This document shows positions 5,493 to 32,341 of a stretch of 54,661 nucleotides of DNA, one piece after another. The notes beneath the pieces are model-generated. The model was not told the origin of the DNA, made no database searches, and was given only the letters and a program-made list of their open reading frames with translations. The stretch spans positions 1 through 54,661 of the forward strand of contig NZ_QAIL01000581.1 in assembly GCF_003061025.1 (NCBI RefSeq), written 5' to 3'. Numbering within the stretch: the first letter of the stretch is position 1; every line of letters starts with the position of its first letter. The DNA is from Pedobacter sp. HMWF019 (GTDB taxonomy: Bacteria > Bacteroidota > Bacteroidia > Sphingobacteriales > Sphingobacteriaceae). Made by a program: the position numbers and the translations under genes.

Positions 5493-6041
5493 CTATGTAA
5501 TTATTCTTTCTTTGATTTTAATGGCCGGATTTCCTGAATAAATTGTAAATGTATCCAAATTAGAGGTGGCTACTGAACCTACTGTCAATACAGCATGTGC
5601 TCCGACTGTAATACCCGGGCATACGATTGCCCCAGTTCCTATCCATGCGCCATCTTCTACTGTAATTCCTGCATTGCGGAGGTCAAAGGTACTTTTTGTG
5701 TAATCGTGATTTCCTGTGAGCAATATAGCTTTCTGCGAAATACAAACGTTGTTTCCTATATGGACCTCTTCCAGGTTTTCTATGTAACAATCCGAGAGCC
5801 AGGAGTGGTTGCCTAATGAAAATTTCCATGGATATTTAATGTGGATAAAGGGTTTGATGCGTACGTCTTTCCCGATTTTTGCACCAAATAACTGTAGTAT
5901 GCCGACGAGCAAGGTGCTGCATGGAAGCAGGCCGGACCTGAACAACAACAAGCTGGTCAAATACCAGAGGCTGATTTTAAGTTTACCTGCCCCCGGATGA
6001 TAGGATCCTTTGTTAAAGGCTTTTCTTAGTTTTGTTTCCAT
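5493..6041 (-). CDS. WcaF-like colanic-acid-type O-acetyltransferase (left-handed beta-helix)
   Basis: This 182-residue hexapeptide-repeat acyltransferase is related to the WcaF family. Residues ~60-170 carry imperfect [LIV]-G-x4 turns (IGKDVRIKPF, LGNHSWLSDC, IGNNVCISQ, VEDGAWIGTGAIVCPG, VGAHAVLTVGSV) and the catalytic-type histidine in LLTGNHDYTKSTFD. Proteins of this type transfer acetyl from acetyl-CoA to sugars of surface polysaccharides. Its start lies inside the 3' end of the upstream GT2-exosortase gene (29 bp overlap). It is the last gene of the minus-strand polysaccharide operon and probably decorates the polymer made by it. Confidence 0.88.
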   Translation of the reverse strand: METKLRKAFNKGSYHPGAGKLKISLWYLTSLLLFRSGLLPCSTLLVGILQLFGAKIGKDVRIKPFIHIKYPWKFSLGNHSWLSDCYIENLEEVHIGNNVCISQKAILLTGNHDYTKSTFDLRNAGITVEDGAWIGTGAIVCPGITVGAHAVLTVGSVATSNLDTFTIYSGNPAIKIKERIIT

Positions 6042-7419
6042 ATTGGTTCTTAGAACGTACCCATGTCATGATCAGGAACCCCATGATACTGTAGGTAATG
6101 AGGTTGAATAGAAAATGTAGGTTTATCCTATAGCCTGGCCGCCAGTAGAGTGTAATGAGCAACAGGCGGAGTAGATTGAGACTTTGGAAGCTTGCTGCCC
6201 CTAACAGCAGGAATAGTAATTTAGATTTAATGGATTTGGAGTAAGCCATGACAAACGCTGTGAATGCACTCATGATTCCATAACCGAGACAAGAGTAGAC
6301 CAGGTGAAAACCAGATCTGCCGGTAACATGGAGGTTAAAAATACTTTTTTTTACTTCATATCCCATCAGGTTCAACAAGGCTGCAGAAGAGGAAATATTA
6401 ATTTCACGCCAGTATCTGATATAGTTGAGGTGCTGGTCCAACCATTGATTGTAGAACCTTCCGGGAGTTGTTATTCCTATAAAGGCGAGGTTACCGATAT
6501 AGAGGAAAAAGAAAAACAGAAGAAACCTTAAGGCAAATTTTCTGCCGATGGGGGGGTGCGGTTTTATGCCTTTTAATCTGAACTGTTCTTCAATTTTTAT
6601 GTCAACAATTAACCTGAACCAGAATGCCTGGAGGAAATGGTATAAGATACCGGTTGCTCCATCCAATATTCCTTTTTGGATGAAGAGACGAAAAGCAAAG
6701 TAAAGATAGGGTCTAAGGTATCTTGGAAAGGTATTCCACAATTGTTTTAACCAAGCTATACGTTCATTGGGGCCAGCCCACAGGTTGGTTCTACAGGTTT
6801 TAACGGGGGTGTATAGGAGCCGGTTGACTTCTTCTTCTGCGAGAAGATCGCTGTAACGATTGTGTTTTTCCAGCCAGAAGGAAATGTTGTTCTCTTTTAG
6901 ATTTTCTTCAATCAAATATCCTTTTCTCCATATTTGCGTTGGTCCGGAAACCAGAAAACGATGGTCCATATTCTGGCTGAGATCGGAATAACCGATATTG
7001 TACCGGAACATCTTGAGCATATATTTAGGAAAGTAGCCTCCATGTTTGATCCACTGGCCTCTGAAAAGGTACTTTCTGTTGAAATAGATTCCGGTTAAGT
7101 GATGATGGTTCTGGTGTTTGAAGTTTTTGAGCTGAAGGTACAGCTCTGGACTAAGTATTTGATCTGCATCAAGTCCAATCACCCATGGTGTACGTATAGG
7201 AAAGATATGGAGGGCATAGTCCCATTGTTTAGGATGGTTGTCAAAGGAGCGGCAGGTATATTGAACCTGATAGGTATTGCAAATATCGAGGGTTTTGTCT
7301 GTACTGCCGGAGTCTAAAATGAAAATGGGGGCTTGAAGTCCCTTTATGGAATCCAGTAGTTTGGAAAGATGTATTTCTTCGTTGAAAGTAAGGATGATAA
7401 AGGTGTAATCAGTTTGCAT
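6013..7419 (-). CDS. GT2 glycosyltransferase fused to a C-terminal exosortase domain (XrtY-like)
   Basis: This is a 468-residue two-part protein. Residues ~1-260 are a family 2 glycosyltransferase: FIILTFNEEIHLSKLLDSI, ILDSGSTDKT, and a D-x-D-type IGLDADQ at 81-87. Residues ~295-455 are a multi-spanning membrane domain with the spacing of the exosortase/archaeosortase triad: Cys377 in YSCLGYGIMSAF, Arg418 in SLNLLRLLLI and His435 in NLHFLFNLITYSIMG. Exosortases are membrane cysteine proteases/transpeptidases that process PEP-CTERM-like sorting tails and usually sit in exopolysaccharide loci. From memory (unverified), annotation databases use the name exosortase Y for such Bacteroidota proteins. 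The ATG at 7419 overlaps the upstream GT4 gene by 11 bp. No PEP-CTERM-type substrate is seen in the window. The exosortase assignment comes from motif reading and needs a profile search. Confidence 0.8.
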   Translation of the reverse strand: MQTDYTFIILTFNEEIHLSKLLDSIKGLQAPIFILDSGSTDKTLDICNTYQVQYTCRSFDNHPKQWDYALHIFPIRTPWVIGLDADQILSPELYLQLKNFKHQNHHHLTGIYFNRKYLFRGQWIKHGGYFPKYMLKMFRYNIGYSDLSQNMDHRFLVSGPTQIWRKGYLIEENLKENNISFWLEKHNRYSDLLAEEEVNRLLYTPVKTCRTNLWAGPNERIAWLKQLWNTFPRYLRPYLYFAFRLFIQKGILDGATGILYHFLQAFWFRLIVDIKIEEQFRLKGIKPHPPIGRKFALRFLLFFFFLYIGNLAFIGITTPGRFYNQWLDQHLNYIRYWREINISSSAALLNLMGYEVKKSIFNLHVTGRSGFHLVYSCLGYGIMSAFTAFVMAYSKSIKSKLLFLLLGAASFQSLNLLRLLLITLYWRPGYRINLHFLFNLITYSIMGFLIMTWVRSKNQYGNKTKKSL

Positions 7420-8593
7420 TTTTTAAGGTTTGTTGGTACATTTCCTGATAAAGAATGGTTAGACGAGGTGCGGAGAAATCTTTCAGAATTTGTTTGGGTG
7501 CATATTTTCTGATTTCAGCCCTTTTCTGAATATCCTTATAGGCTTTGTAAAAGGTATGTGTTAAGTCTGTAATACTGGATTTGCAGATCCAGCCAAGATT
7601 ATGTTGAAGTACATAAGCTGCTAATCCAACTTCTCTGGTCAGTAGAACCGGTGTGCCACTGGCAAGACTTTCTATGACCACGTTGGCGAAATTTTCATTT
7701 TGGGAAGGTAAAACCAGTAGATCGTGTTTTTGGATAAAATCAAATTTCTCCTGTTCGTTGAGATAACCTGCCCAGTTGATGTACTGATGTATGTTTAAAT
7801 GAAAGCTTAGATTCTTTAATGACCAGACGTAATCGGGGCAACCTTGACCGGCTATGGATAAGTTCCATGCAAATTTAGTTCTGCTCAGCGCTCTAAGCAG
7901 TAGATCAAGTCCTTTTTTTTCTTCTATCCTGGAGAGAAATAGAAATTGGAAAGCTTTCTTTTTGGTTGTATAACAAGTTTTGGAGCTCTGTTTCTGATGG
8001 AAAAGGGAGCTTGGACAGTTGATGAAATTGGGAATAATATAGAGTTCTTTTGGTCGTAGTCCTATCTTGTGGATATCTTCCTTTTCCTTTTCTGAGGTGG
8101 TATGGACAATACATTGCTTCAGTAGCCAGCTTCCAATGGCTTTATGAAAGAGTTTCTTTCCCAATGATTTTCTGTTTTGCAATGTATACGGGGTAAGCAT
8201 CCCTCTGGGTGATAAAATTACAGGTATGTGGTACCATCTGGCCAGTGCTGTAGATAAAATGGCAACCATATTCCACCAGGAATGGATATGGATAATCAAA
8301 TGTTGTTTGCGATGGTTTTTAATTTGTTTTCGAAGATTCCAGAGTAAAGCAGGCGAAAAATGACTGTGGTCTTTTGTGAGGCGTTTAAAATACCAGACTT
8401 TAACGTTGTCCAGTAAACAGGTAAGATTTGTTGGGGTCTGCAGAGCGGATTGCCCATTGGCATTGGTAGTCAGAACTTCGATTTCTAAATGGCTTTTGAC
8501 CAGTTCCTCGCATAGTTTAGAAACAGAGGTAATGGTACCACCATAGAAGTAAGCGGGTTTATAAGATGGCGTGATCTGGAGGACTTTTAGCAT
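7409..8593 (-). CDS. GT4-family glycosyltransferase of the exosortase-associated polysaccharide operon
   Basis: This 394-residue GT-B fold enzyme begins MLKVLQITPSYKPAYFYGG, with a glycine-rich N-terminal donor/acceptor loop. Residues ~200-360 form the GT4 C-terminal domain, including FLFLSRIEEKKGLDLLLRAL and the retaining-GT E-x7-E motif in QNENFANVVIESLASGTPVL. It should transfer a sugar from a nucleotide-sugar to a lipid-linked precursor on the cytoplasmic face. It overlaps the Wzy-like gene by 7 bp and the GT2-exosortase gene by 11 bp, which indicates tight translational coupling. Donor and acceptor are unknown. Confidence 0.93.
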   Translation of the reverse strand: MLKVLQITPSYKPAYFYGGTITSVSKLCEELVKSHLEIEVLTTNANGQSALQTPTNLTCLLDNVKVWYFKRLTKDHSHFSPALLWNLRKQIKNHRKQHLIIHIHSWWNMVAILSTALARWYHIPVILSPRGMLTPYTLQNRKSLGKKLFHKAIGSWLLKQCIVHTTSEKEKEDIHKIGLRPKELYIIPNFINCPSSLFHQKQSSKTCYTTKKKAFQFLFLSRIEEKKGLDLLLRALSRTKFAWNLSIAGQGCPDYVWSLKNLSFHLNIHQYINWAGYLNEQEKFDFIQKHDLLVLPSQNENFANVVIESLASGTPVLLTREVGLAAYVLQHNLGWICKSSITDLTHTFYKAYKDIQKRAEIRKYAPKQILKDFSAPRLTILYQEMYQQTLKNAN

Positions 8594-10005
8594 GGTTTAA
8601 TTTTTTGAAGTATTTGAAAATGTTTGAGGAGATGGAACAGCAAGAGCATCATAAAAAAGCCGTATGTTATGTTGTTGATTAGAAATTCCCAATTATTTCC
8701 GCGCCAAAGCGGTTGAAAAAAGCCGTTGAAGATGATAATGCATCCTAGTGGATAACCGCCAAATATGTTTTCAGCTTTATTGCAAAGCCATTGGGCAATT
8801 AGACCATAAAGGAACATCGCTACAAAAACAATCAAAGTACCCCCACTCAGATAGGCATCGGTTACTGGCCGGGTCTTCGCAGAAGCTGCAGATAAACGGT
8901 TTACAGCTCCGCAGGTATATACCCTTTCCATAGAGACTTTCTCTGTATTGGGTTTTTGACTCCAGAAAGTTCTTGGAATTAAGGCATAGAAGGAGTTTCT
9001 TAAAATTTCGAAGCCATAATAGGGTTGCTGGTCTGGTACGGATTTGATATACTGGCAAAACATATCTGTTTCACTGAAACGGTAGGTTAAGAAATTCCAA
9101 TTGTTATCACTGATCTTGGCTCCTTCGGAACCACTAAGCAGAAATTCGAATGCTTCCCGACGGACATCCTTTGATGGTTTGTGATTATTCCAGGATGAAG
9201 TCCTGATCATCAGGCTGAGGGTAGGCAAGGTGTATAACAAGAGGTAGAGCAAGGGAAGGAAGAAGATTAGAACTGTTTTTCTAAAGTAGGGGAAGGATAT
9301 GAAGCCGATCAGCAGCAGGTTAACAAGGAGACTTTCTTTGTAGCCACTTAATGTTTCACTTAAGAGTTGTAAACTGAGGGCTGCTCCGGCAAGTGTTATC
9401 TGAAATGGTCTCCTGTGGAAAAATCCGGAGATGAATAAGTAAGAAAGACAGCATGCAGATAAATGGAGTAAATAGTATTTGATTTGCAGAAATGAGGGAT
9501 AGTGATCCAGTACTAAAGTACAGAGGAAAGAGATGAAATACAGGCGGATCAATAGCGGAGTCAACTGCATTGTACATTGGTATTTCTGAAACAGAGTTTT
9601 GGTTTGATACTGTATACCTGTAACTAATCCGATATGTCCAAGAAGGGCTATTTGCTGGGATTTAGCGATTATAAAAGTTTGTGGGCTAATAATGAAATTA
9701 CCTTTTACCGACTCCAAGTATTTGTACCCAATATGATCTGCAAAGTAGAATATGGAGGTGCAACACATGAAACCTGCAAAAATGAGTTGTATCAGAACAA
9801 TGGGGCGCATAACCTGCAAAACCTGTGTTTGGTTGCTGTTTGTGTATTTCCATGGCGAAAAAAGTGTGTAGTAAAAGATAAACCAGGATCCTGAAAAGGC
9901 AATTAGATAGGACAGAACAGGGTGATGTGCTAATGCGAGTGAAATGAGCCAGGGTATGGCAATTGTAAATAAGTTCTGAATTTTCGTAGAGGATGTTAAA
10001 GACAT
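8587..10005 (-). CDS. Wzy-like polysaccharide polymerase (multi-pass membrane protein)
   Basis: This 472-residue protein has about 10-12 hydrophobic segments and one large hydrophilic loop at roughly residues 265-385. The loop holds a block typical of O-antigen polymerase-like proteins (NSFYALIPRTFWSQKP), and helices follow. Wzy proteins join repeat units in the periplasmic leaflet. The position among glycosyltransferases and a Wzz/BY-kinase supports this role; sequence conservation in the family is weak, so the call relies on topology, the PRxxWxxKP-type block and context. From memory, similar Pedobacter proteins are labelled exosortase Y-associated Wzy-like. It overlaps the preceding gene by 10 bp and the next by 7 bp. 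Confidence 0.8.
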   Translation of the reverse strand: MSLTSSTKIQNLFTIAIPWLISLALAHHPVLSYLIAFSGSWFIFYYTLFSPWKYTNSNQTQVLQVMRPIVLIQLIFAGFMCCTSIFYFADHIGYKYLESVKGNFIISPQTFIIAKSQQIALLGHIGLVTGIQYQTKTLFQKYQCTMQLTPLLIRLYFISFLCTLVLDHYPSFLQIKYYLLHLSACCLSYLFISGFFHRRPFQITLAGAALSLQLLSETLSGYKESLLVNLLLIGFISFPYFRKTVLIFFLPLLYLLLYTLPTLSLMIRTSSWNNHKPSKDVRREAFEFLLSGSEGAKISDNNWNFLTYRFSETDMFCQYIKSVPDQQPYYGFEILRNSFYALIPRTFWSQKPNTEKVSMERVYTCGAVNRLSAASAKTRPVTDAYLSGGTLIVFVAMFLYGLIAQWLCNKAENIFGGYPLGCIIIFNGFFQPLWRGNNWEFLINNITYGFFMMLLLFHLLKHFQILQKIKPC

Positions 10006-11111
10006 TTTAGTGTGCTTTTAACTTGTTCATAAAAGTTCCATTTAGAGATGAGTTCGGCTGAAGCGATGCCTGCCCTTTCAAGTTCTTCATTACACTGAAG
10101 AAGCTGGTCGAGTTTTGTAGTCAAATCATTCAGATCATTATTTTTAAAGACCATTCCATTAGTTGCTGTAACAAGGTCAGTAGCAGCGCCACACTGGTCG
10201 GATACCAGTACTGCTTTGCCGCAAGCCATGGCTTCATTAATAGAAAGACCCCAGGTTTCATGTAAAGAGGGCAAACAAAAAAGATTGCATGCTTTATAAA
10301 AGGAGGGCATGTTTTTTTGATTTTGAAAAGGGAGGATATGGATGTTCGGGTGTGTTTTAGCTTCTTTTTCTAGAAGGGTTTGAAGTGGTCCGGAACCAAT
10401 GTAAAGAAGATGGTGGTTCTTTTTGTTCAATTTTCTGAATGCTTTTAGAAGTAATATCGGGTTCTTTCCTTTGTTGAATTTTCCGGCGAAAAGAAGGAGG
10501 CTGTCTGTTTCTTTTAACCCAAGACTTTTGCGGATGAATGTACCCGAGCCGGTTGAATTGAAGCGTTCGTTGTCTACACTATGTGGAAGAAAATGGAGTT
10601 TTTCTTCCTTAACACCATAATACTTAAAATAAGCCTTGTTGTTGGTTCCTGCGTATAGTATGGTGTCTGCATGACTATATAGCCAGGTGAGGAAGATCTT
10701 TTTGAAAGGTCTTTTCCATAATGGGTATTTACCAGGTAAAATGGAGTCTCCCCTGAAAATGATTTTAACTTTGCCTTCAAAATGCCTTATAATTTTGAAA
10801 TGACTTAGATTTGACCAGCCATAAATCAACAGGTGCCGGGGGTTGAATTCTTCGATTTGGTGGAAGGCATCTGGATTGATGATTCCCAAAAAATGGTGCG
10901 TTCCTGGGTGTTTGGCTGTGTTTTTCAGGAAGGTGTAATCGTATCCTTCCAGGAGAGGAATATCCCAGTTGACCTGACAAAGAAACTTTCTGTCGTAAAG
11001 AGAGGTCGTTCCACAGGTGTAAAATACTTTAAGTGGGGTCCTTTTTGCCAGTAGTTGGAAGAATGGAGCATAGTATTGAATGGGATGACTGATTATAATG
11101 GCCAGTCCCAT
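9996..11111 (-). CDS. GT4-family glycosyltransferase
   Basis: This ~371-residue GT-B glycosyltransferase begins MGLAIIISHPIQYYAPFFQ, the usual opening of a GT4 subgroup. The C-terminal domain includes LLFAGKFNKGKNPILLLKAF and the E-x7-E motif in LHETWGLSINEAMACGKAVL. A GTG at 11129 would add six residues overlapping the previous gene, but I prefer the ATG at 11111 because family members start at this point; it leaves a 10-bp gap after the upstream stop. It is third in the minus-strand operon and overlaps the Wzy-like gene by 10 bp. The substrate is unknown. Confidence 0.92.
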   Translation of the reverse strand: MGLAIIISHPIQYYAPFFQLLAKRTPLKVFYTCGTTSLYDRKFLCQVNWDIPLLEGYDYTFLKNTAKHPGTHHFLGIINPDAFHQIEEFNPRHLLIYGWSNLSHFKIIRHFEGKVKIIFRGDSILPGKYPLWKRPFKKIFLTWLYSHADTILYAGTNNKAYFKYYGVKEEKLHFLPHSVDNERFNSTGSGTFIRKSLGLKETDSLLLFAGKFNKGKNPILLLKAFRKLNKKNHHLLYIGSGPLQTLLEKEAKTHPNIHILPFQNQKNMPSFYKACNLFCLPSLHETWGLSINEAMACGKAVLVSDQCGAATDLVTATNGMVFKNNDLNDLTTKLDQLLQCNEELERAGIASAELISKWNFYEQVKSTLKCL

Positions 11112-11121
11112 TTGCAGTTCT

Positions 11122-12249
11122 TTAATCACGGTCTAACAGGTTTTTAAGATGATATTTGTATTGAGGGTAATTGAAATAAAGAAGACACAGATGTTGTCGT
11201 GCATAGGCTGTTTCCTGTGGTGTTGCCTCCTCAAGATGGCTCAAAATCGTGTGATGAAGTGTTTCCAGGTCGTCCGGATCTATTAATGTACCCAGTGCAC
11301 CATTGGCTATTGCTTCTTTACTGCCGTCTTTGTTGCCACAGATAATTCGGCAACCTGTAGCAGCAGCTTCTGTAAAAACAAGGCCGAATCCTTCTTTTTT
11401 GCTTGGAAGGACAAAAATATCACATAGTAAATAGTGATCTGTAAGTGTCTTTTCGGGAATAAAGCCAATTATTTTGATATGATTTTGTAAGCTTTCTTTC
11501 CTGATCAGTTCCTGCAGGAAAGCCTTTTCTTCTTTGTCCGGGAGTCCGCCCAGGAGGTAACATATGTTGGGAAATCTCTCTCTTAATCTCTTTAGTATTC
11601 GTATCACATTCAAATAACCTTTATCACGTTCATTTGAACCGAGTCTGCAGATACTTAATAGTAGGGGTTGTGCGGGTTGTAAGTTGTAATGCGAAAGCAG
11701 GTAGCCAGGTTTATGAAGTATTCCTGGAATGTTGAAATAAGGATCCAGGCAGTTGTTCAATACGAAAGCATTCTGTCCTGTGATGCCGTGTTTTTTTTTG
11801 ATTGTTTCTGCTGTGAAATGGCTTACGCACCAAATTTGAATGTATTGCTTTATAAACAATACCTTCCATTTAGAAAGCTTTCCCCAGATTTCAATTCCAT
11901 GTGCGAGAAGGATGATCCTGGTGTTTGGCCTTAAAATTTTGATCATTAAAGCTATAGGAAGCAGGTGGATGTGACTTAGAAGGATATTTGGGTGTGACGA
12001 ACTCTTTGCAATAGCATGCAGTGTGAACAATAATTTTTGATTGTTAAACCCCTTGAACTGTGCGGATGGTATATATCTGGAATCTGCTTGTGTGGTTTGG
12101 TCTTTTAAGGAAAAGACCTGCAGTGCGGAGTTTCTTTCTGCACAAATATCTGACAGGGCTTTGCTCAACGTCCGGCATACTTTCTGAATTCCTCCGGTGT
12201 CGCAAAAGCTACTTAGCGTAAGGAATAGGATATCATGTTTTCTTTTCAT
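11122..12249 (-). CDS. GT4-family glycosyltransferase
   Basis: This 375-residue GT4 enzyme has the N-terminal FCDTGGIQKVCRTLSKAL (Gly-Gly-Ile-x-x acceptor loop), the mid-protein ILLAHGIEIWGK, and the C-terminal nucleotide-sugar domain with LLSICRLGSNERDKGYLNVI and the E-x7-E motif in KKEGFGLVFTEAAATG. It probably adds a residue to the polysaccharide repeat unit in the cytoplasm. Start and stop are coupled to the Wzz/BY-kinase gene by an ATGA overlap (12246-12249). Specificity cannot be inferred. Confidence 0.93.
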   Translation of the reverse strand: MKRKHDILFLTLSSFCDTGGIQKVCRTLSKALSDICAERNSALQVFSLKDQTTQADSRYIPSAQFKGFNNQKLLFTLHAIAKSSSHPNILLSHIHLLPIALMIKILRPNTRIILLAHGIEIWGKLSKWKVLFIKQYIQIWCVSHFTAETIKKKHGITGQNAFVLNNCLDPYFNIPGILHKPGYLLSHYNLQPAQPLLLSICRLGSNERDKGYLNVIRILKRLRERFPNICYLLGGLPDKEEKAFLQELIRKESLQNHIKIIGFIPEKTLTDHYLLCDIFVLPSKKEGFGLVFTEAAATGCRIICGNKDGSKEAIANGALGTLIDPDDLETLHHTILSHLEEATPQETAYARQHLCLLYFNYPQYKYHLKNLLDRD

Positions 12250-14516
12250 AGATCTTTGCTGTAGTTATCGGGTAGGTTATAGTATTCTTGTTGAAAATGA
12301 TCTTTCTCGAAGCCGTTTAGTATTAGAGAGATATTGGGTAACCTGAACTCTTTAAGTAGTTTTTCGGGCAGGGTAGCAGAATATTTTTTGGATATTCCGT
12401 ATCTAAGGATAAAGAGGTTAATATCTGATATCTTAAGTAGGGGAACGGTGTCTGAGACCAGGCCAACCGGAGCTGAATCGAGGAGGATATAATCGTAGGT
12501 CTTCTTTAGTTCTGCTATAAGCGCCTTCATTCTTGGGTGTTGCAGCAGTTCGGAGGGATTAGGTGGGACAGGCCCGGAGGGAATGAAACTGAGATTATTG
12601 ATAAAGGTCTTGTGGCAGATTTGAGAAGTTGTCTGCTGTCCGGAAAGATAATTGCTCAGGCCATAATGGTTGCTGATGGATAAATCGAGATGTAGCGCTG
12701 ACTTTCTCAGATCTGTAGCAATCATACATACTTTTTTATCGATTAAGCTTAATGAAGCAGCAAGATTCAATGAAACAAATGATTTGCCTTCTCCCGAATT
12801 GCCTGAAGTTATACAGATCACCTTATTGCTACTTTCTGTACAGAGGTAATCGAGATTAATACGGAGTGCTTTTATGGATTCTGAGAAATGGGAGCGGGGG
12901 TCTTCTATAGAAAGAACAGATGTAAGCCTTCTTTTTTTTGAATCTGTTCTTATATAACCTATTATTGGAAGAGAACTGAGTTCTTTCACTAATGAAGTGT
13001 CATATAACCGGGTGTTTAATTTGTGTTGCAGGAAGATGAGGAGCAAACCTGTTAGAAAACCTCCAAGCACGAAGTCGGTGTAGATTTGAATTGAAATAGG
13101 ATATACAGGTTCATCTGGTAGGGATGCATAGTCTATAATCTGTATTCCTGATATAATTGCGGCTGCGGCGATGCCTGCTTCCAGTTTTTTTTCTGAAAGG
13201 TAATTGTAAACTTTCTGATTTACTTCAAAGTCAGACTGTAGTTGTATAAAATCTTTTTCTGTTTTCGGAAATGAATGCAGCGTTTTGCGGAGTCCGGCAG
13301 TTTGATGAGAGAAGTAAGAAATGAGTTTTCCATATTGTTGCTCCTGATTTTTTAAGGTGGATTGAATAGATTGTTTGATATTGCTGATTTGGTTTTCTAC
13401 ATAAATAACGGGAGAGGCTTCGGGCTTGTAAAGCAGCAGAAGCTCTGTTTTTTTCTGTAGAAGGGAGTTGTAATTGTGCAGAAGTGCGATCAGCTGGGGG
13501 TCTTGGATGCCTTGCAAATTATAATTCAATTTATCTGTTGAGATTGGCTGATTTAAGCTTTTAAGGACCTCCCTGTTGATCAGGTTCAGGATAGATAACT
13601 GCTGTTTTTCTTTTTCAAGATCAGATAATTTAGTGATCATTTCTTTTGCGCTGGAAGAGATATCTGAAAAACCGCGGGCAGTTTTGAAGTTTTGTATTTC
13701 CGATGAGGAACGAAAAAGTACGATGGCCATTTTTTTTAACAAGGTGTCTATAAACAGGGAGGTTTGTTTGCTGGGCGCACTACGTTGTGATTTGTCGTAC
13801 TTTTGATATTCATTAAGGATAGCGTTTAGGATATCCCTGGCAAGGAAAGGATTCGGATCGCTAAATTGAAGCTTAAGAATATTTGTGTTTTGATTGTCGT
13901 CAACTTTCAGTTTTTCGATGATGTATTTAAGGAGGTTGGTTTCTTCATTGAATTTGAAGTGATAGTGCTGCGAAATATTTTTCCGTGGATTAAGAATCCG
14001 AAAAAGCAGGCCTGGAAGTACGACTATTGAGTTATACGCATACTTTCGGATGGTTTTCTTTCCTGCCAACAGGTACGAGAGTTGGAAGGCCTTTCTGCTG
14101 ACGGGTTCAAATTTAAAAAGTATTTTGTTGTAGTTTTTTCCACTTAATTCCAGGATTTGTATATCTAGGGGCTGGGCCGGATAGAGGTTGATCATCCTAA
14201 ATGGATGCGATACAAAAAAAGAAATTTTGTAATTCAAGGCAGTTATGGCTTTCCCGATTACATTTCTTGATGTCATTATTGTTTTCTCTGCTTCACTTTT
14301 GCTATTTCGGTCATAAGTATTTCTGATGGTGATGAGTTCAGAAAGCTCAGATCTTCGGTCCTCGAGTTTCAGAGATGCGCTAGCGCAGTATATAGAGGTA
14401 CTTGTATATTGGAACAGAAAGGCTAAACCGATAGATATAGCCATAACCGCTGCAATATAATTCCACTTTTTCAGGATCAAATCCCATGTTTTTAAATGAT
14501 GGTTTAAATTTTCCAT
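12246..14516 (-). CDS. Wzz/BY-kinase: polysaccharide co-polymerase with tyrosine-kinase domain
   Basis: This 756-residue inner-membrane protein controls chain length and export. A first membrane helix lies at ~18-36, followed by a Wzz domain, a long periplasmic coiled-coil region (residues ~230-440) with a GNVR-like end, and a second helix at ~490-512. The cytoplasmic BY-kinase domain has a Walker A in SGNSGEGKS (Lys578), an A' motif in MIATDLRKS and a Walker B in YDYILLDSAPVG. The C-terminal tail has only a few tyrosines (EYYNLPDNY) where Wzc-type kinases carry a larger cluster. It is the first gene of the operon; 95 bp of AT-rich DNA separate it from a divergent GT2 gene, so the operon promoter probably lies there, although no exact TAnnTTTG was found. 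Confidence 0.93.
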   Translation of the reverse strand: MENLNHHLKTWDLILKKWNYIAAVMAISIGLAFLFQYTSTSIYCASASLKLEDRRSELSELITIRNTYDRNSKSEAEKTIMTSRNVIGKAITALNYKISFFVSHPFRMINLYPAQPLDIQILELSGKNYNKILFKFEPVSRKAFQLSYLLAGKKTIRKYAYNSIVVLPGLLFRILNPRKNISQHYHFKFNEETNLLKYIIEKLKVDDNQNTNILKLQFSDPNPFLARDILNAILNEYQKYDKSQRSAPSKQTSLFIDTLLKKMAIVLFRSSSEIQNFKTARGFSDISSSAKEMITKLSDLEKEKQQLSILNLINREVLKSLNQPISTDKLNYNLQGIQDPQLIALLHNYNSLLQKKTELLLLYKPEASPVIYVENQISNIKQSIQSTLKNQEQQYGKLISYFSHQTAGLRKTLHSFPKTEKDFIQLQSDFEVNQKVYNYLSEKKLEAGIAAAAIISGIQIIDYASLPDEPVYPISIQIYTDFVLGGFLTGLLLIFLQHKLNTRLYDTSLVKELSSLPIIGYIRTDSKKRRLTSVLSIEDPRSHFSESIKALRINLDYLCTESSNKVICITSGNSGEGKSFVSLNLAASLSLIDKKVCMIATDLRKSALHLDLSISNHYGLSNYLSGQQTTSQICHKTFINNLSFIPSGPVPPNPSELLQHPRMKALIAELKKTYDYILLDSAPVGLVSDTVPLLKISDINLFILRYGISKKYSATLPEKLLKEFRLPNISLILNGFEKDHFQQEYYNLPDNYSKDL

Positions 14517-14611: not shown

Positions 14612-15358
14612 ATGAAAGTTAGTATAGTGAGTGTTGTTTTAAATTGCAAAGATTATATTGGTGATTGTATTCTAGCTGTTATCGGGCAGGACTATCCCGA
14701 AATTGAGTATATCGTAATAGATGGGGGTTCTACGGATGGTACATTAGATGTTATTCAACAGTACCAGGATCGTATTCATGTCTTTGTCACCCAAAAAGAT
14801 CAGGGTTTTTATGATGGGCTTAATAAGGGGATTGCCCTGGCAACGGGAGATATTATAGGAATACTAAACGCAGATGACGTCCTTGCCGCGCCTGAAACGA
14901 TTTCTATTGTTGTCCGTAAATTTATGGAAACACTGTGTTATGGGATATATGGGAATTTGGAATACACGGACAGGAAAGACATTGGAAAAGTAGTAAGGAG
15001 CTGGAAGCCTGGAGAATTCAGTCCGGAAAAGCTTAAAAGAGGATGGATGCCTCCGCATCCTACTTTATACCTGTATAGAGATCTCTATGATCGTTGTGGG
15101 AACTATTCAATGAATTTTGGTACTTCAGCAGATTATGAATTTATTCTAAGATTGTTTTGTTCATATGGAACAAGTCTGGTATATATAGATCAATTACTGG
15201 TGAAGATGCGTAAAGGAGGGATGAGTAATGCAGGTGTAAAACCATTCTTATGGGCTTGTATACACGACTACAGATCGCTGTTACTGCATGGATTTCACTG
15301 GCCTGTACTGATTACAATTTGTAAAAAGCTTAGAAAAATTAAGCAGTTTTTCTACTAA
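14612..15358 (+). CDS. GT2 glycosyltransferase (WcaA/WcaE-like)
   Basis: This 248-residue GT-A family 2 enzyme begins KVSIVSVVLNCKDYIGDCI, with the nucleotide-binding YIVIDGGSTDGTLDVI, the acidic motif ILNADD (D-x-D type) and MPPHPTLYLYRDLYDRCG near the acceptor region. It resembles the GT2 group used for colanic-acid-like polymers. It is divergent from the seven-gene operon but probably serves the same pathway. The ATG at 14612 follows an AT-rich leader. Confidence 0.9.
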   Translation: MKVSIVSVVLNCKDYIGDCILAVIGQDYPEIEYIVIDGGSTDGTLDVIQQYQDRIHVFVTQKDQGFYDGLNKGIALATGDIIGILNADDVLAAPETISIVVRKFMETLCYGIYGNLEYTDRKDIGKVVRSWKPGEFSPEKLKRGWMPPHPTLYLYRDLYDRCGNYSMNFGTSADYEFILRLFCSYGTSLVYIDQLLVKMRKGGMSNAGVKPFLWACIHDYRSLLLHGFHWPVLITICKKLRKIKQFFY

Positions 15359-18277: not shown

Positions 18278-18751
18278 ATGGTTCAATTGTTAGGAGAATT
18301 TGATTGTAAGTTAGATGCGAAAGGCCGACTGATGGTCCCTTCGAATCTAAAGAAACAATTGCCTAATGTTGAGCAGGAAGGATTGGTTGTTAACAGGGGT
18401 TTCGAGAAACATCTTGTCATCTATCCGAAAAAAGTGTGGGAGGGAATCGTGGAAGATTTGAGTAAATTAAATCCTTATGAACAGAAAAACAGGGAGTTTA
18501 TCCGTTATTTCACCAGAGGTGCGACAGAACTAAGCCTGGATGCGACAGGAAGAGTAAATCTTCCAAAGTCATTACTGGAATCAGTAGGGATTTCTATTAA
18601 TACGGAATTGGTGTTGGCTTGCCAGTTTGATAAAATAGAGGTCTGGTCTAAAACGGCTTACGATGCTTTGTTTGACCAGGAGCCGGAAAACTTTGCAAGC
18701 TTGGCTGAAGAGGTGATGGGAAATAAGAATAGGAGGGATGATGGAAAGTAA
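18278..18751 (+). CDS. mraZ: Transcriptional regulator MraZ
   Basis: This 157-residue protein has two AbrB/SpoVT-like swapped-hairpin domains: residues ~5-50 (GEFDCKLDAKGRLMVPSNL) and ~80-125 (GATELSLDATGRVNLPKSLLE). MraZ proteins form ring oligomers and regulate their own operon by binding tandem repeats upstream; such repeats are present at 18209-18238. It is the first gene of the division and cell-wall cluster and overlaps rsmH by 14 bp. Confidence 0.97.
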   Translation: MVQLLGEFDCKLDAKGRLMVPSNLKKQLPNVEQEGLVVNRGFEKHLVIYPKKVWEGIVEDLSKLNPYEQKNREFIRYFTRGATELSLDATGRVNLPKSLLESVGISINTELVLACQFDKIEVWSKTAYDALFDQEPENFASLAEEVMGNKNRRDDGK

Positions 18752-19646
18752 TTATCATGTTCCAGTAATGCTTGAGGCTTGCCTTGAAGGTTTGAATATA
18801 AAACCTGATGGGGTTTATGTTGATGTTACCTTTGGTGGCGGTGGGCATTCCAGAGCGATTCTTGAAAAATTAGGGGAAAATGGGGTGTTGATCGCATTTG
18901 ATCAGGATCCAGATGCTCAAAGAAATAAAATTAATGACCCAAGGTTTTTGTTTGTTGATCAGAACTTTGCCTTTTTAAAAAATAACCTGAGGTTATTAGG
19001 GTACAGACAAGTGGATGGAATTCTGGCAGATCTAGGTGTTTCTTCTCATCAATTCAATGAACCAGAAAGAGGTTTTTCTACCCGTTTTGATTCTTCATTG
19101 GATATGAGGATGGATAAGCAGGGTAAGTTGACAGCGGCAGATGTCTTAAATACTTATGCTGAGGAAGATCTGCATAAAATATTCGGGATTTATGGAGAGG
19201 TGAAAAATGCAAAATCCCTGGCCAGAACTATTGTCACTGCAAGGGCATCGGCTCCAATTATAACTCTAGCTGAATTTAAGAAAACGATTGCGGCACACAT
19301 TCCTAAAGGGAAAGAACATAAATATATGGCGCAGGTTTTTCAGGCCTTGCGCATTGAAGTGAATGGAGAGATTGATGTGCTGGAGCGTTTTCTGGAGCAA
19401 ACGGCAGATGTCATAAAGCCTGGCGGCCGCCTGGTGGTGATGTCTTACCATTCGCTGGAAGATCGCCCTGTAAAGAATTTTATTGCAAAAGGGAAGTTCA
19501 GAGGAGAGGTGGAAAAAGACTTTTATGGGAATCAGCAAAAGCCTTTTAATGTGATTACACGAAAGGCGATTATGGCAGATGAAGAAGAGCTGGTGAGGAA
19601 TACCAGATCCAGAAGTGCAAAACTTAGAATCGGAGAAAGAATATGA
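18738..19646 (+). CDS. rsmH: 16S rRNA (cytosine1402-N4)-methyltransferase RsmH (MraW)
   Basis: This 302-residue SAM-dependent methyltransferase modifies C1402 of 16S rRNA in the ribosomal P site. It has HVPVMLEACLEGL, the SAM-binding VDVTFGGGGHSRAIL, GILADLGVSSHQFNEPERGFS and the C-terminal SYHSLEDRPVKNF, all family signatures. Two adjacent ATGs (18738 and 18741) are possible starts, both within the end of mraZ. The stop overlaps the ftsL-like start by 4 bp. Confidence 0.97.
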   Translation: MMESNYHVPVMLEACLEGLNIKPDGVYVDVTFGGGGHSRAILEKLGENGVLIAFDQDPDAQRNKINDPRFLFVDQNFAFLKNNLRLLGYRQVDGILADLGVSSHQFNEPERGFSTRFDSSLDMRMDKQGKLTAADVLNTYAEEDLHKIFGIYGEVKNAKSLARTIVTARASAPIITLAEFKKTIAAHIPKGKEHKYMAQVFQALRIEVNGEIDVLERFLEQTADVIKPGGRLVVMSYHSLEDRPVKNFIAKGKFRGEVEKDFYGNQQKPFNVITRKAIMADEEELVRNTRSRSAKLRIGERI

Positions 19647-20065
19647 GTAACCGCTTCAGAGAAGATATAGAGGAAGAAGAGCCAGAGCCGGAAGAAGAGC
19701 CGGTGTTGAAGGTAAAAAAGGAAAAGGTAAAAAATACGGAAAGTGGAAGGACGTTTTTTACAAAGCTTTTTACTGAAGGCGTAGTGACCAAGGAAGCTGC
19801 AACGGAGATGTTGCCGTTTTTGTTGTTTATATCCTTTTTGTGTATGCTGTATATAGCAAACAGTCATATGGCTGTAAAGAACATAAGAAGTATAGATAAA
19901 TTAAATAAAGAAGTAAAAGAACTAAGCTGGGAGTATAAGTCTTTAAAAGCAGATCTGATGTTTAAAAGCAAACTGACGGAAGTGGCTAAAAAGGTAGATA
20001 CTCTTGGTATAAAAGAATTAACGGCGCCGCCGAAAAAAATTGTAATAGGTAACGATGAACATTAG
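19643..20065 (+). CDS. ftsL: FtsL-like divisome membrane protein
   Basis: This 140-residue bitopic protein has an acidic/basic N-terminal cytoplasmic tail (residues 1-45), one membrane helix around 54-72 (MLPFLLFISFLCMLYIAN) and a periplasmic coiled coil at ~75-115. Sequence conservation with proteobacterial FtsL is very low, but size, topology and position between rsmH and ftsI are diagnostic of the Bacteroidota FtsL-like family. It likely bridges FtsQ and the FtsW-FtsI synthase. ATGA overlap with rsmH and 11-bp overlap with ftsI. Confidence 0.85.
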   Translation: MSNRFREDIEEEEPEPEEEPVLKVKKEKVKNTESGRTFFTKLFTEGVVTKEAATEMLPFLLFISFLCMLYIANSHMAVKNIRSIDKLNKEVKELSWEYKSLKADLMFKSKLTEVAKKVDTLGIKELTAPPKKIVIGNDEH

Positions 20066-22151
20066 AGCGAACATATTATTGCGTGTTTATCTGGCTTTTG
20101 GCCTGATTGTACTGTTTGCCGTGGCAGTACTGATCAGGCTATGCGATGTACAGTTTGTGGAGGGACATAAATGGCGTGCCATGGCCGACAGTCTCTCTAC
20201 AAAGTATGTCAATGTGGAGGCGGCACGCGGTAATATTTATTCTAATGACGGAAGTTTGCTGGCTACCTCTGTTCCTGAGTACGAACTTAGAATGGACTTG
20301 TATGCGGGTGGTATAGAAGACCGAGATGTTTTTAATGGAAAGGTGGATTCGCTGGCCCTGCGTCTGTCACAGTTTTTTCAAGACAAAACACCTAAGGAAT
20401 ATTCAAGATACCTGCGGTCTGCAAGGCGGGATAGTGTTCGCTATCTGTTGATAAAACGTAAGGTGAATTATCAGGACCTGAAGACAATAAGGACATTTCC
20501 TTTATTTAATATAGGTAAATATAGTGGCGGACTAATCGCTATTCAGCAGAACAAAAGGATTCTGCCGTTTAAATCGCTTGCTGCAAGGACAATTGGCTAT
20601 AAGAATGAGAATGTGGCTAATGGTGTCGGTCTGGAAGGGACTTTCGGGAATTATATCAATGGAGAAAGCGGAAAAAGATTAGTGCAACGTATTGCCGGAG
20701 GGGTTTGGATGCCTGTGAACGATGAGGCAGAGATCGCACCAAAAGAAGGTGCCGATATTATTTCCACTATAGATATTAATATGCAGGATCTTGCACAAAG
20801 TGCTTTAGAGAAGCAATTAATTGCGAGTGATGCAGATCATGGATGTGTAATCTTGATGGAGGTTGCAACAGGAGAAGTGAGGGCAGTGGCTAATTTTACC
20901 AAAGTGGCTAAAGGAGAGTATAAAGAAACCTTTAATTATGCTATCGCAGGAAACCAGGATCCGGGCTCGACATTTAAAGTGGCCTCATACATGGCCTTGC
21001 TGGAAGATAAAAAAGTAGATACCAATACGCTTGTGGCTACTGGGAATTATAAAATCCCAGGACATATGATTAAGGACTCTCATGGTAGTATTGGCGTGGT
21101 TACGGTGAAAAAAGCATTTGAAGAATCATCTAACGCGGCTATTGCCCAAATGGTGGATCAGCACTATAAAGACAATCAGGCACAGTTTACTGATCATTTG
21201 TATGATTGGCACTTAAATGAGAAATTACGGCTCCAGATTCCTGGAGAAGCACAGCCGGTAGTTAAAAATCCGAAAAATAAAAGCTGGAATAAGAATATGA
21301 CGCTGCCTCAAATGGCTTATGGTTATGAAATGCAGTTAACACCTTTAAAGATGCTTTCTTTCTACAATGCTATTGCTAACAATGGAAAATACATCGCGCC
21401 AATCTTTGTGAAAGAAATCAGGAGATTAGGAAATCCTATTGAGCAGTTCAAGGCCCGTGTAGTTAATCCTAAGATCTGCTCTGATGAGACCATGAAAAAA
21501 ATGCATGCCCTGCTGGAGGGAGTGTTTACAGAAGGAACAGGAAAAAGCTTGGCCTCTCCTTTCTTTAGAATTGCTGGTAAAACAGGAACTGCACAGGTAG
21601 CAGACGGCAATAAAGGTTATAAAGCTAAAAAGCAATATCAATCTTCTTTTTGTGGTTATTTCCCTGCAGATCATCCTAAGTATTCTTTAATCGTAGTCAT
21701 TAATGATCCTAAAGGTACTTATTATGCGGCATTGGTTGCGGGTCCTCCTTTCAGAGAGATTGCAGACCGGATTTATGCCAGTGACATGCAGATGTATAAT
21801 GAAGTTTCAGACCGGTTGGTTGGAAATACAAAAAGTCCGGAAGCAAAGTCAGGACAGACCAAAGATGTTAAAAGAGTATATAATGCTTTTGGTATTAAAG
21901 CCTTGTATGCTGCTAAATCAGACTATTTCAATAGTGTGGATACCAGTAATGGAATCGTGTATGAGGAATACAGTGCAGTTAAAGGAGCAATGCCGAATGT
22001 GAATGGTATGGGCTTAAAAGATGCATTATACTTAATTGGTAATGCCGGGTTAAAAGCACAGGTTAAAGGTAGTGGAAAAGTGGTGAGTCAATCGATTCCC
22101 GCAGGAAGTAAAATTGGAAAAGGATTATCAGTACAAATAGAATTGAAATAA
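20055..22151 (+). CDS. ftsI: Peptidoglycan transpeptidase FtsI (class B PBP) with C-terminal PASTA domain
   Basis: This 698-residue septal transpeptidase has an N-terminal membrane anchor (~10-30), a PBP dimer domain (~55-230) and a transpeptidase domain with S305-T-F-K (nucleophile Ser305), S358-S-N360 and K509-T-G511. A PASTA-like domain occupies the last ~60 residues (MPNVNGMGLKDALYLIGNAG). It cross-links glycan made by FtsW at the septum and is the expected beta-lactam target. It lies between ftsL and murE with 1 bp to the next gene. Confidence 0.97.
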   Translation: MNIRANILLRVYLAFGLIVLFAVAVLIRLCDVQFVEGHKWRAMADSLSTKYVNVEAARGNIYSNDGSLLATSVPEYELRMDLYAGGIEDRDVFNGKVDSLALRLSQFFQDKTPKEYSRYLRSARRDSVRYLLIKRKVNYQDLKTIRTFPLFNIGKYSGGLIAIQQNKRILPFKSLAARTIGYKNENVANGVGLEGTFGNYINGESGKRLVQRIAGGVWMPVNDEAEIAPKEGADIISTIDINMQDLAQSALEKQLIASDADHGCVILMEVATGEVRAVANFTKVAKGEYKETFNYAIAGNQDPGSTFKVASYMALLEDKKVDTNTLVATGNYKIPGHMIKDSHGSIGVVTVKKAFEESSNAAIAQMVDQHYKDNQAQFTDHLYDWHLNEKLRLQIPGEAQPVVKNPKNKSWNKNMTLPQMAYGYEMQLTPLKMLSFYNAIANNGKYIAPIFVKEIRRLGNPIEQFKARVVNPKICSDETMKKMHALLEGVFTEGTGKSLASPFFRIAGKTGTAQVADGNKGYKAKKQYQSSFCGYFPADHPKYSLIVVINDPKGTYYAALVAGPPFREIADRIYASDMQMYNEVSDRLVGNTKSPEAKSGQTKDVKRVYNAFGIKALYAAKSDYFNSVDTSNGIVYEEYSAVKGAMPNVNGMGLKDALYLIGNAGLKAQVKGSGKVVSQSIPAGSKIGKGLSVQIELK

Positions 22152-22152
22152 A

Positions 22153-23610
22153 ATGCAGTTGCAGGAAATATTATATGGAGTAGCTATAACAGAACTGGTT
22201 GGATTAACCAACAGGGAGGTTAGCGCACTAACATTTGATTCCCGTCAGGTGGCGAAAGGATCAGTATTCTTCGCTATTAAAGGAACCTTGTCTGACGGAC
22301 ATTCCTATATTGCCCAAACTGTTGAGGCAGGTGCGGAGGTGATCGTTTGTGAGCAGATGCCATCGGAATTAAAAGAAGGAATAACCTATATACAGGTAGA
22401 GGATTCGCATATTGCTTTAGGCAAAGCGGCATCCAATTTTTATGAGCATCCTTCAGCTGGATTAAAGCTGATTGGAATTACAGGAACAAATGGTAAAACG
22501 ACCATTGCTACATTGCTGTTTAAATTGTTCCGTGCTTTGGGTTATAATGTAGGCCTAATTTCAACTGTTCAGAACCAGATTAATGAGGAGATTATTTTGG
22601 CGACACATACCACACCGAATCCAATTGCATTGAACGAGTTGTTGCAAAACATGGTGCGTAGCGGATGTGATTTTTGCTTTATGGAGGTAAGTTCCCATGC
22701 CGTTGCACAGCATAGAATTGAAGGCTTGGATTTTACAGGAGGAGTGTTCTCTAATATTACACACGATCACCTGGATTTTCATAAAACATTTGAGAATTAT
22801 CTGAAGGCCAAAAAGGCATTTTTTGATGCTCTGCCTAAATCTGCATTTGCCTTGACAAATGCAGATGACAAGAACGGAATGGTCATGCTGCAAAATACCA
22901 AAGCTTTAAAGAAAACTTATGCATTAAAGCAATTGGCTGATTTTAAAGCAAGAATTATTGAAAATAAATTTAGCGGGTTAAACCTGGATATTGATCATGT
23001 TGATGTTTTCTTTAAACTTGTAGGCTCTTTTAATGCTTATAACCTCTTGGCGGTATATGGAACAGCAGTTTTACTGGGTGAGGATAAATTTAATGTTCTG
23101 ACTCTATTAAGTAATCTTACTGGTGCTGAGGGGCGTTTTGACTATGTAAGTAATAAACTCAACATCATTGGCATTGTAGATTATGCACATACGCCAGATG
23201 CTGTGCAGAATGTATTGAGTACTATTCATGATATTAGAAAAGGAACAGAGCAGGTCATCACGGTGATTGGTTGTGGTGGCGACAGGGATAAAACAAAACG
23301 TCCGATTATGGCGCAGGTCGCTTGTGACTGGAGCGATAAAGTAATTCTAACTTCAGATAATCCCAGAACTGAGGACCCGCTTTCTATTGTGCAGGACATG
23401 GAGGCTGGTGTTTCGCCAACAAACAGACGTAAAACCCTGACTATAGTTGACAGAAAGGAAGCCATAAAAACGGCCTGTCATTTGGCTAAGCCTGGAGATA
23501 TTATTCTTCTTGCTGGAAAAGGTCACGAAAAATACCAGGAAATAAATGGTGTAAGGCATCATTTTGATGATAAGGAAATATTATTGGAACAACTAAACCT
23601 CATTAGCTAA
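22153..23610 (+). CDS. murE: UDP-MurNAc-L-Ala-D-Glu:meso-diaminopimelate ligase
   Basis: This 485-residue cytoplasmic Mur ligase adds the third stem residue. It has [16 protein letters not shown] in the UDP-binding domain, the ATP loop [11 protein letters not shown], the carbamoylated-lysine region and the C-terminal D-N-P-R-T-E-D-P motif, which marks meso-DAP rather than lysine specificity. It starts 1 bp after ftsI and shares a TAATG junction with mraY. Confidence 0.97.
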
Positions 23611-26200: not shown

Positions 26201-26204
26201 AGAT

Positions 26205-27398: not shown

Positions 27399-27409
27399 TA
27401 TTTAGAGAG

Positions 27410-30821: not shown

Positions 30822-30850
30822 TAATAAACTCAACAATCAATAATATAGTT

Positions 30851-32212: not shown

Positions 32213-32215
32213 TAT

Positions 32216-32262
32216 TTTTCCACAAAACATGATTTTTCCACATTTCTAACAATTGTGGAAAA
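32216..32262. promoter_or_regulatory. Three exact TTTTCCACA 9-mers between ftsA and ftsZ (DnaA-box-like)
   Basis: TTTTCCACA occurs at 32216-32224 and 32234-32242 on the plus strand, and inverted at 32254-32262. It fits the relaxed DnaA-box consensus TTWTNCACA and differs by one base from TTATCCACA. The second and third copies form a 9-bp hairpin with an 11-nt loop. Whether it is a protein site, an RNA structure or both is open. Confidence 0.45.
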
Positions 32263-32341
32263 CGCCTGTTAAAAAAGTGTTAATATTACAAGGAGAGATG
32301 AACAGGTACAGCTAATTTTTAAATAACTGATTCATAAAGAT

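Follow-up and report, generated by a model that had tools for sequence, protein, structure and literature searches.

Exosortases are believed to cleave tripartite tails, possibly as transpeptidases (PMC1569441, PMC11980579), and the open-licence passages on which this and the following comparisons draw name no acceptor for a bacterial exosortase. Here we describe an exosortase of the XrtY type that is fused to a family 2 glycosyltransferase (GT2) and encoded in a 54,661-nucleotide stretch of Pedobacter sp. HMWF019 (contig NZ_QAIL01000581.1, assembly GCF_003061025.1; hereafter, the window), together with three families of tail-bearing proteins that are its candidate substrates in this organism and its relatives. 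XrtY, its Wzy and XYAG1 partners, and the PID-CTERM tail are already in NCBIfam. Among the open-licence literature matches listed, XrtY or PID-CTERM is not described as an exosortase system, and by the same measure the link between XrtY and substrates, the tail families CPID and CPLDTW, and GT2-XrtY as a recurrently fused unit are new.

The closest described systems, as presented in the passages cited, each share part of this arrangement. The EpsH/PEP-CTERM system (PMC1569441) resembles it in its tripartite tail, signal peptide, outer-membrane bacterial hosts, and exopolysaccharide locus, and was found by the same profiling logic as the XrtY pairing, but its motif is different and the window protein stays below the cut-off of the Pfam model Exosortase_EpsH (PF09721; 15.8 bits against 25.7). 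ArtA/PGF-CTERM (PMC7157517) likewise combines an enzyme of the superfamily with neighbors that hint at the acceptor; the neighbors of Methanosarcina artA, however, are phospholipid genes, whereas that of XrtY encodes a glycosyltransferase. XrtF of Flavobacterium johnsoniae is another variant exosortase of Bacteroidota, the best studied one of that phylum in the papers cited, is needed for biofilm formation and surface colonization, and differs in having an adjacent partner gene that gives the same phenotype (PMC10936215); its substrates are described as still not known in the passages cited (PMC10936215, PMC12188702). Finally, the invariant Cys before the helix of MYXO-CTERM tails recurs in CPID and most CPLDTW tails, although myxosortase belongs to an unrelated protease family (PMC11980579) and the PID-CTERM candidate substrate in the genome of the window lacks such a Cys.

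The fusion gene and its two parts are:

6013 to 7419, minus strand: GT2-exosortase (XrtY-type) fusion, 468 amino acids (open reading frame and profile matches)
6586 to 7419, minus strand: GT2 half, residues 1-278 (Pfam match at residues 7-126; in split relatives the GT2 corresponds to about residues 1-278 or slightly beyond)
6058 to 6540, minus strand: exosortase (XrtY) half, residues 294-454 (NF046083 match)

The reading frame is single and uninterrupted over 468 codons, and the plus strand across it holds many stops. Residues 7-126 match Glycos_transf_2 (Pfam PF00535; 35.3 bits, gathering cut-off 23.3), and residues 294-454 match exosortase Y (NF046083) at 142.4 bits (E 1.2e-41; 146.2 bits in the genome-set search), with XrtX (54.6 bits) and XrtF (46.5 bits) as the runner-up exosortase models. 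The likeness to the XrtY family lies in this being the best profile by far, in both named partners being adjacent, and in the same catalytic triad; the differences are a score of 142 against the curated cut-off of 160, and the GT2 fusion, the family model being a 168-residue exosortase part alone. The window protein is a divergent XrtY-type enzyme and, by NCBI's own rule, not a full XrtY member. A prediction made earlier from this DNA alone had read a GT2 domain followed by a membrane exosortase domain in one 468-residue frame, which the reading frame and the Pfam and NCBIfam matches bear out, the exosortase half matching NF046083 below cut-off and the superfamily model TIGR04178 above it (residues 374-454; 30.6 bits, cut-off 23). 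Named relatives retrieved with the fusion protein belong for the most part to Mucilaginibacter; the rest are other Sphingobacteriales or unnamed Bacteroidetes and a single Cytophagales bin.

We searched 99 genomes of the enzyme's own genus for XrtY (E ≤ 1e-3) and obtained a match in 63 (genomes, contigs, and loci are cited by G, C, and L numbers). These were split into classic XrtY (at least 228 bits; 41 genomes) and divergent XrtY (at most 198 bits; 19 genomes, the window type), along a line drawn after the PID-CTERM results were known, though at a score gap; G041, G060, and G074, whose xrtY is cut or broken, were counted apart, and 36 genomes are without XrtY. On a quick tree, which has many weak branches and some long ones, classic XrtY forms one branch (support 99); the tree comprises 82 XrtY domains, 52 of them from own-genus loci, 29 from named loci, and one from the window. 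The same rows served for the conservation analysis and cover 53 of the 63 own-genus XrtY genomes, the absentees being seven unfetched classic genomes, the broken G060 and G074, and the cut G041; the frame-broken rows L057, L058, L180, and L181 were left out, and L188, L196, and L197 are without XrtY and hence have no row. Searches of the own-genus genomes with the XrtY and XrtX models turned up no second exosortase and hence provide no alternative enzyme for the tails of that genus. In Mucilaginibacter, the genomes G143, G155, G157, G160, G161, G176, G177 (which has three), G187, and G217 contain frames of 193-217 amino acids that match XrtY weakly, at 34-46 bits, and probably represent another exosortase family.

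In the divergent group, the candidate substrate is a PID-CTERM mini-protein. The genome of the window has one PID-CTERM (NF046080) gene (G000:C56:15381-15455), whose 63-residue product scores 40 bits in the genome and 39.4 bits as a protein (cut-off 26) and consists of a signal peptide, EDPGLPGGDPDVP, IDGG, a hydrophobic helix, and a basic end; removal of signal peptide and tail would leave about 13 residues (EDPGLPGGDPDVP or near) as the mature peptide. The original prediction had proposed looking for short proteins that end in a motif, a helix, and a basic cluster, and such a search, done by profile and not as a general scan, yielded this one protein in the own genome and whole families in relatives. 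PID-CTERM matches were present in 18 of the 19 divergent-XrtY genomes versus 2 of the 36 XrtY-less ones (E ≤ 1e-3; Fisher 2e-11, the Fisher tests here and below treating related genomes as independent), as well as in 1 of the 41 classic genomes (G068, weakly) and 0 of the 3 with cut or broken xrtY. At E ≤ 1e-4, the counts were 16 of 19 divergent, no classic, one XrtY-less, and no cut or broken. Own-genus genomes with a PID-CTERM match have one each; about 13-30 residues separate signal peptide and motif, and DPG[LFV]PGxDPDVP precedes the tail in 10 of the 16 own-genus mini-proteins listed, the others differing.

NF046080, which we guess from neighboring accession numbers to have been made by NCBI for XrtX, is matched over cut-off by the own-genome mini-protein but seems to be paired with XrtY in this genus, since XrtX, the partner that this origin would imply, is over cut-off in none of the 99 genomes and was rejected. 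We also rejected PID-CTERM as the substrate of all XrtY enzymes, given the single weak match in 41 classic genomes. As for the surroundings of the mini-protein gene, 20 own-genus stretches around PID-CTERM include a BadF-type kinase in 19 and also a resistance-nodulation-division efflux operon in 18 (by eye), and 16 hold a relative of a 1019-1080-residue protein, two scanned examples of which end in a type IX secretion tail. This type IX-tailed protein is a single frame of 1019-1080 amino acids in 9 of the 16 stretches and lies in two frames (786 + 258 amino acids) in the own genome (L157:10543-13685, contig C56).

The weak PID-CTERM match in G068 led to a second family, here called CPID, in the genomes with classic XrtY. 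CPID proteins have about 110-190 residues, with a signal peptide, a variable Cys-containing part, and the tail xCP[IL]DDYxxxLIxxxxGxGFFxxRK. Seven that were scanned gave no NCBIfam match over cut-off (with sub-cut-off PExPT-CTERM and Loki-CTERM matches among four of them), and four gave nothing in Pfam. We built a profile, A1, from 18 CPID tails of 14 genomes; no row came from L089 and L111 (by choice), L096, L098, L100, L105, L106, and L107 (owing to the script), or L091 (no motif match). At E ≤ 1e-3, A1 matched 41 of 41 classic genomes, 0 of 19 divergent genomes, and 3 of 36 XrtY-less own-genus genomes (G029, G047, and G035, the last 81% complete; Fisher 1e-18), along with 3 of 3 genomes with cut or broken xrtY; all 28 classic genomes outside the profile were matched. 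At E ≤ 0.01, the matches were in 41 classic, 2 divergent, 6 XrtY-less, and 3 cut or broken genomes. In two of the latter, classic xrtY is in pieces or carries stops (L057 in G074 and L058 in G060) and the CPID-tail genes persist.

Physical linkage accompanies this co-occurrence. A CPID gene lies within 52 kb of xrtY on the same contig in 36 of the 41 classic genomes (53 entered, among the matches listed), mostly at 23-41 kb, though at 1.8 kb in G048; for the remaining five genomes, the matches listed lie on other contigs. The loci of G036 and G048 have an array of tail genes at one end, followed by export and chain-length genes and glycosyltransferases (by eye), and at the far end Wzy, a GT4 (by eye), GT2, XrtY, and an acetyltransferase, with one more tail gene just past these in G048. 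Classic-XrtY candidates number from one to nine or more per genome. Since CPID arrays (L267:600-4320 and L266:13770-18860) also hold VPLDDY, VPLDDF, or TPLDDY tails and A1 undercounts such variants, substrate numbers per genome are undercounted.

Results outside the genus also speak against a single PID-CTERM rule across XrtY enzymes: among 32 Mucilaginibacter-like genomes, NF046080 passed its cut-off in just 2 and gave matches at E ≤ 0.01 in 6, and for this reason the profiles A2 and then A3 were built. A2 matched 20 of the 32 named-locus genomes at E ≤ 0.01, and A3 matched 27 of the 32, including 10 of the 15 outside the profile; two more carry different tails, recognized in G127 by A2 and in G129 by NF046080, and A2, A3, and NF046080 found no tail in G108, G115, and G124. 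The proteins concerned, of about 64-97 residues, end in CPLDTWVIxLAxxAVIFAAxHLxxKQK or close to it. Two CPLDTW mini-proteins scanned had no NCBIfam match over cut-off, and nine scanned CPID and CPLDTW proteins had no NF046080 match. In 100 genomes from the genus of G110 (Mucilaginibacter aquaedulcis), with XrtY-positive defined as E < 1e-20, A3 was found in 64 of 72 XrtY-positive versus 4 of 28 XrtY-negative genomes (Fisher 2e-12) and, among held-out genomes, in 53 of 61 versus 3 of 27. In one XrtY-negative, A3-positive genome, G137, contig ends interrupt the GT2 gene, and xrtY may therefore be missing from the assembly. In the own genus, A3 matched 1 of the 12 divergent genomes given (G097, not that of the window) and 0 of the 36 XrtY-less genomes at E ≤ 1e-3 (two at 3e-3).

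From these distributions, XrtY very probably acts on proteins with PID-CTERM, CPID, and CPLDTW tails. The original prediction had called the substrate undefined; strong candidates now stand in three tail families that track XrtY, and it is their cleavage, together with the membrane topology and the identity of the acceptor, that we infer.

The second feature of the system is the glycosyltransferase. In the own genus, a fused frame (464-504 codons) is present in 9 of the 63 XrtY genomes, the frames of the rest having mostly about 180-250 codons. Gene order in 53 own-genus loci with an unbroken xrtY (52 fetched loci and the window) showed GT2 fused to xrtY in 9 and directly upstream on the same strand in 41, with spacings from a 134-base overlap to a 111-base gap; the broken-xrtY loci of G074 and G060 also have GT2 upstream. 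Of the 72 XrtY genomes in the Mucilaginibacter sample, 34 carry a fused frame. The 34 named loci, a biased set because they were retrieved by a GT2-containing query, comprise 17 fusions, 12 cases of two genes in order, 2 frame-broken copies (from one genome), 1 GT2 alone, and 2 contig-cut loci. On the 82-domain tree, the state switches between fused and split at least six times, and comparison of the sequences indicates that the fusion is a recurrent joining or splitting of a standing GT2-XrtY gene pair and not a singular invention. The frame-broken copies, L180 and L181, are two copies of the fusion in Mucilaginibacter phenanthrenivorans, with the exosortase part broken at about residue 384 (frames of 401/390 + 104 amino acids). 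In L052 (G086) and L053 (G012), XrtY has 171-175 amino acids and no adjacent GT2, and the Wzy gene is on another contig.

Three residues of the exosortase half are of catalytic interest:

6289 to 6291, minus strand: codon of C377 (C in 82 of 82 aligned relatives)
6166 to 6168, minus strand: codon of R418 (R in 82 of 82 aligned relatives)
6115 to 6117, minus strand: codon of H435 (H in 82 of 82 aligned relatives)

Cys377, Arg418, and His435 are present where the original prediction placed them and are invariant in all 82 aligned XrtY domains. The adjacent position 434 (Leu in the window protein) is His in 79 of the 82, and it was thus the invariant His that had been picked. An AlphaFold2 model, computed on a 32-row alignment of the window protein and related-locus sequences (predicted local distance difference test 80.9, predicted template modeling score 0.59), shows a GT-A-like domain and four membrane helices, that is, past the glycosyltransferase domain, a predicted helix at 291-317, an outer loop (a helix and short strands), and helices at 380-392, 397-425, and 434-455. 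C377 and H435 start two of the predicted helices, and R418 lies towards the end of the intervening antiparallel helix; from this helix order, all three residues should lie on one side of the membrane. That this side is the outer one, with the GT2 inside, is suggested by basic residues located ahead of the first helix, within the 392-398 turn, and at the C-terminus. A sequence search for a solved exosortase relative found none, the sole match being a chance one (E 0.24), and the 50 PDB folds listed as matching the model are glycosyltransferases or their complexes (SunS, TarP, WrtF, and others). Cys S-glycosylation by the GT2 half was considered because the peptide S-glycosyltransferases SunS and ThuS are the top PDB folds, but was set aside: calculated on the whole query, their template modeling scores are 0.30-0.36, numerous other GT-A enzymes score close, and the own-genome substrate has no Cys at its motif.

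The fusion gene lies in a run of overlapping minus-strand genes that extends from 14516 to 5493, with the following neighbors:

12246 to 14516, minus strand: Wzz/tyrosine autokinase (chain length control), first of the run (NCBIfam and Pfam)
11122 to 12249, minus strand: glycosyltransferase, GT4 type (Pfam)
9996 to 11129, minus strand: glycosyltransferase, GT4 type (Pfam)
8587 to 10005, minus strand: exosortase Y-associated Wzy-like protein (NF046084; 533.7 bits, cut-off 420)
7409 to 8593, minus strand: XrtY-associated glycosyltransferase XYAG1 (NF046085; 523.5 bits, cut-off 400)
5493 to 6041, minus strand: WcaF-type acetyltransferase, last of the run, overlapping the fusion gene (NF007797; 205 bits, cut-off 192)
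14612 to 15358, plus strand: divergent GT2 glycosyltransferase, on the far side of the operon start (Pfam)

The fusion thus stands between XYAG1 and the acetyltransferase, and both named XrtY partners adjoin it, each over cut-off, which agrees with the polysaccharide-operon setting proposed in the original prediction. The order Wzy-GT4-GT2-XrtY-acetyltransferase is also that of the two classic loci described above (partly by eye). Among the seven neighboring window proteins scanned, none is a lipid-synthesis enzyme. Elsewhere in the window, 18278-33979 holds an apparently ordinary cell division and cell wall cluster (mraZ-like and mraW-like genes to ftsA and ftsZ, by eye).

Sequence comparison provides three elements for a mechanism, namely the company that XrtY keeps with the three tail families, the GT2-XrtY adjacency, and the invariant triad. 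The fusion would be a two-part membrane enzyme, with a cytoplasmic N-terminal GT2 half and a C-terminal XrtY half of four membrane helices. The GT2 half would add a sugar to the glycan made by the same locus, while the Cys-Arg-His triad at the outer face would cleave the C-terminal tail of small secreted proteins, recognized by (i) a P[ILV]D motif (CP[IL]D in many relatives), (ii) a hydrophobic helix, and (iii) a basic end; in the own genome, the substrate would be the 63-residue PID-CTERM mini-protein of contig C56. The acyl-enzyme would then be resolved by passing the new C-terminus to an acceptor, the likeliest being the locus glycan or a lipid-linked glycan. As a whole, this explanation, tail cleavage by XrtY with transfer to an acceptor, is one that we favor with some reserve, and transpeptidation, rather than mere cleavage, is likely. 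The GT2 gene is adjacent or fused in 50 of the 53 own-genus loci, which, by the reasoning applied to archaeosortase neighbors, suggests a glycan or glycolipid acceptor; this analogy leaves a glycan-type acceptor a tentative choice, with nearly balanced prospects. Moreover, the small size of the substrate implies that the tail and a short peptide may be all that the system needs, whether as a polysaccharide cap or anchor or as a released peptide.

A bolder and rather doubtful version would make GT2-XrtY a one-chain glycan-peptide ligase that gives a peptide-capped surface polysaccharide. Its cytoplasmic half would set the acceptor sugar on a lipid-linked glycan, which would then be flipped, and its periplasmic half would attach to that glycan, through its C-terminus, a secreted peptide of about 13-30 residues dedicated to this role; classic XrtY would mount Cys-containing mini-domains on the polymer of the same 30-40 kb locus.

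The alternative that survives best, though we consider it unlikely, is a phospholipid acceptor, as is thought for ArtA, with GT2 being just an operon member and its fusion accidental. Archaeosortase anchoring is lipid-based, and phospholipid enzymes, the gene neighbors of archaeosortase, proved necessary for lipid modification of the substrate in the passages cited (PMC7157517). Further, the interchange of fused and split states at least six times on the tree implies that the fusion is not essential, and G086, G012, and G039 carry xrtY without an adjacent GT2. None of the seven scanned window neighbors is a lipid enzyme, however, and the GT2 association in 50 of 53 loci also speaks against this alternative.

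It is distinctly less probable that XrtY only cleaves, the mini-protein being the precursor of a short secreted signal or matrix peptide, linear or cyclized on its own N-terminus. The merely 13-30 or so residues between signal peptide and motif, the recurrence of DPG[LFV]PGxDPDVP in 10 of 16 own-genus mini-proteins, and the one PID-CTERM match per own-genus genome would all suit such a peptide; against this, the operon is for polysaccharide, and the proteins on which classic XrtY would act, numbering one to nine or more in each genome, are about 110-190 residues long and look more like structural proteins than pheromones.

Several observations weigh against the favored explanation itself. For the enzyme, the XrtY half of the window misses the NF046083 cut-off; divergent XrtY is not one clade, since 17 of the 19 form a branch (support 83) and G044 and G039 fall elsewhere with weak support; and the GT2 association has exceptions, with no GT2 beside xrtY in 3 of 53 loci (G086, G012, and G039) and a more distant GT2 type in 4 of the 41 upstream cases (217-234 bits versus 430-521). 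For the substrates, G032 has XrtY but no PID-CTERM match, G002 and G098 have weak PID-CTERM matches without XrtY, 6 of 8 genomes from other families in the class also have PID-CTERM, and A3 is absent from 8 of the 72 XrtY-positive and present in 4 of the 28 XrtY-negative Mucilaginibacter genomes. For their linkage, three tail profiles found no substrate gene in the window, the own-genome mini-protein gene is on a different contig, and only 2 of 54 other xrtY stretches scanned (L056 and L192) have a tail gene close by, so that mini-protein genes are mostly elsewhere in the genome. In L056 (G039), about 33 bases separate the mini-protein gene from xrtY, which follows it on the same strand, and in L192 the mini-protein gene lies between GT2 and xrtY on the opposite strand.

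A further alternative is that XrtY and the tails were merely inherited together, by common descent with no functional link, which we regard as very improbable. The genomes of one genus are related, a dependence that the Fisher tests ignore, and groups that differ in their tails form clusters on the XrtY tree. Yet the substrates follow XrtY and not Wzy: the XrtY-associated Wzy is kept, over cut-off, without XrtY in G018, G046, G065, and G073 (80% complete), and 0 of these 4 have a PID-CTERM or CPID match, whereas 17 of the 18 own-genus XrtY genomes without a Wzy over cut-off do have a substrate match. In addition, the tail type differs between XrtY groups, physical linkage takes several arrangements, and the tails share the tripartite build of known sorting signals. 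Weakest, and scarcely credible, is the idea, entertained in the original prediction, that the exosortase fold was repurposed to ligate glycans or lipids and has no protein substrate: its position in a polysaccharide operon and its glycosyltransferase fusion would fit, but tail-bearing proteins closely track XrtY in two genera and differ between XrtY groups, which leaves the idea unsupported, and the triad is invariant in 82 of 82 domains.

In summary, one exosortase lineage gains three candidate substrate families, one of them almost a bare peptide, and for two of the three (CPID and CPLDTW) the scanned members have no NCBIfam model over cut-off. The attached GT2 hints at the acceptor, and the putative mature peptide, of about a dozen residues, would be short enough for mass spectrometry to reveal the attached group directly. 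The XrtY system sits in ordinary soil bacteria, and its role there is now directly testable.

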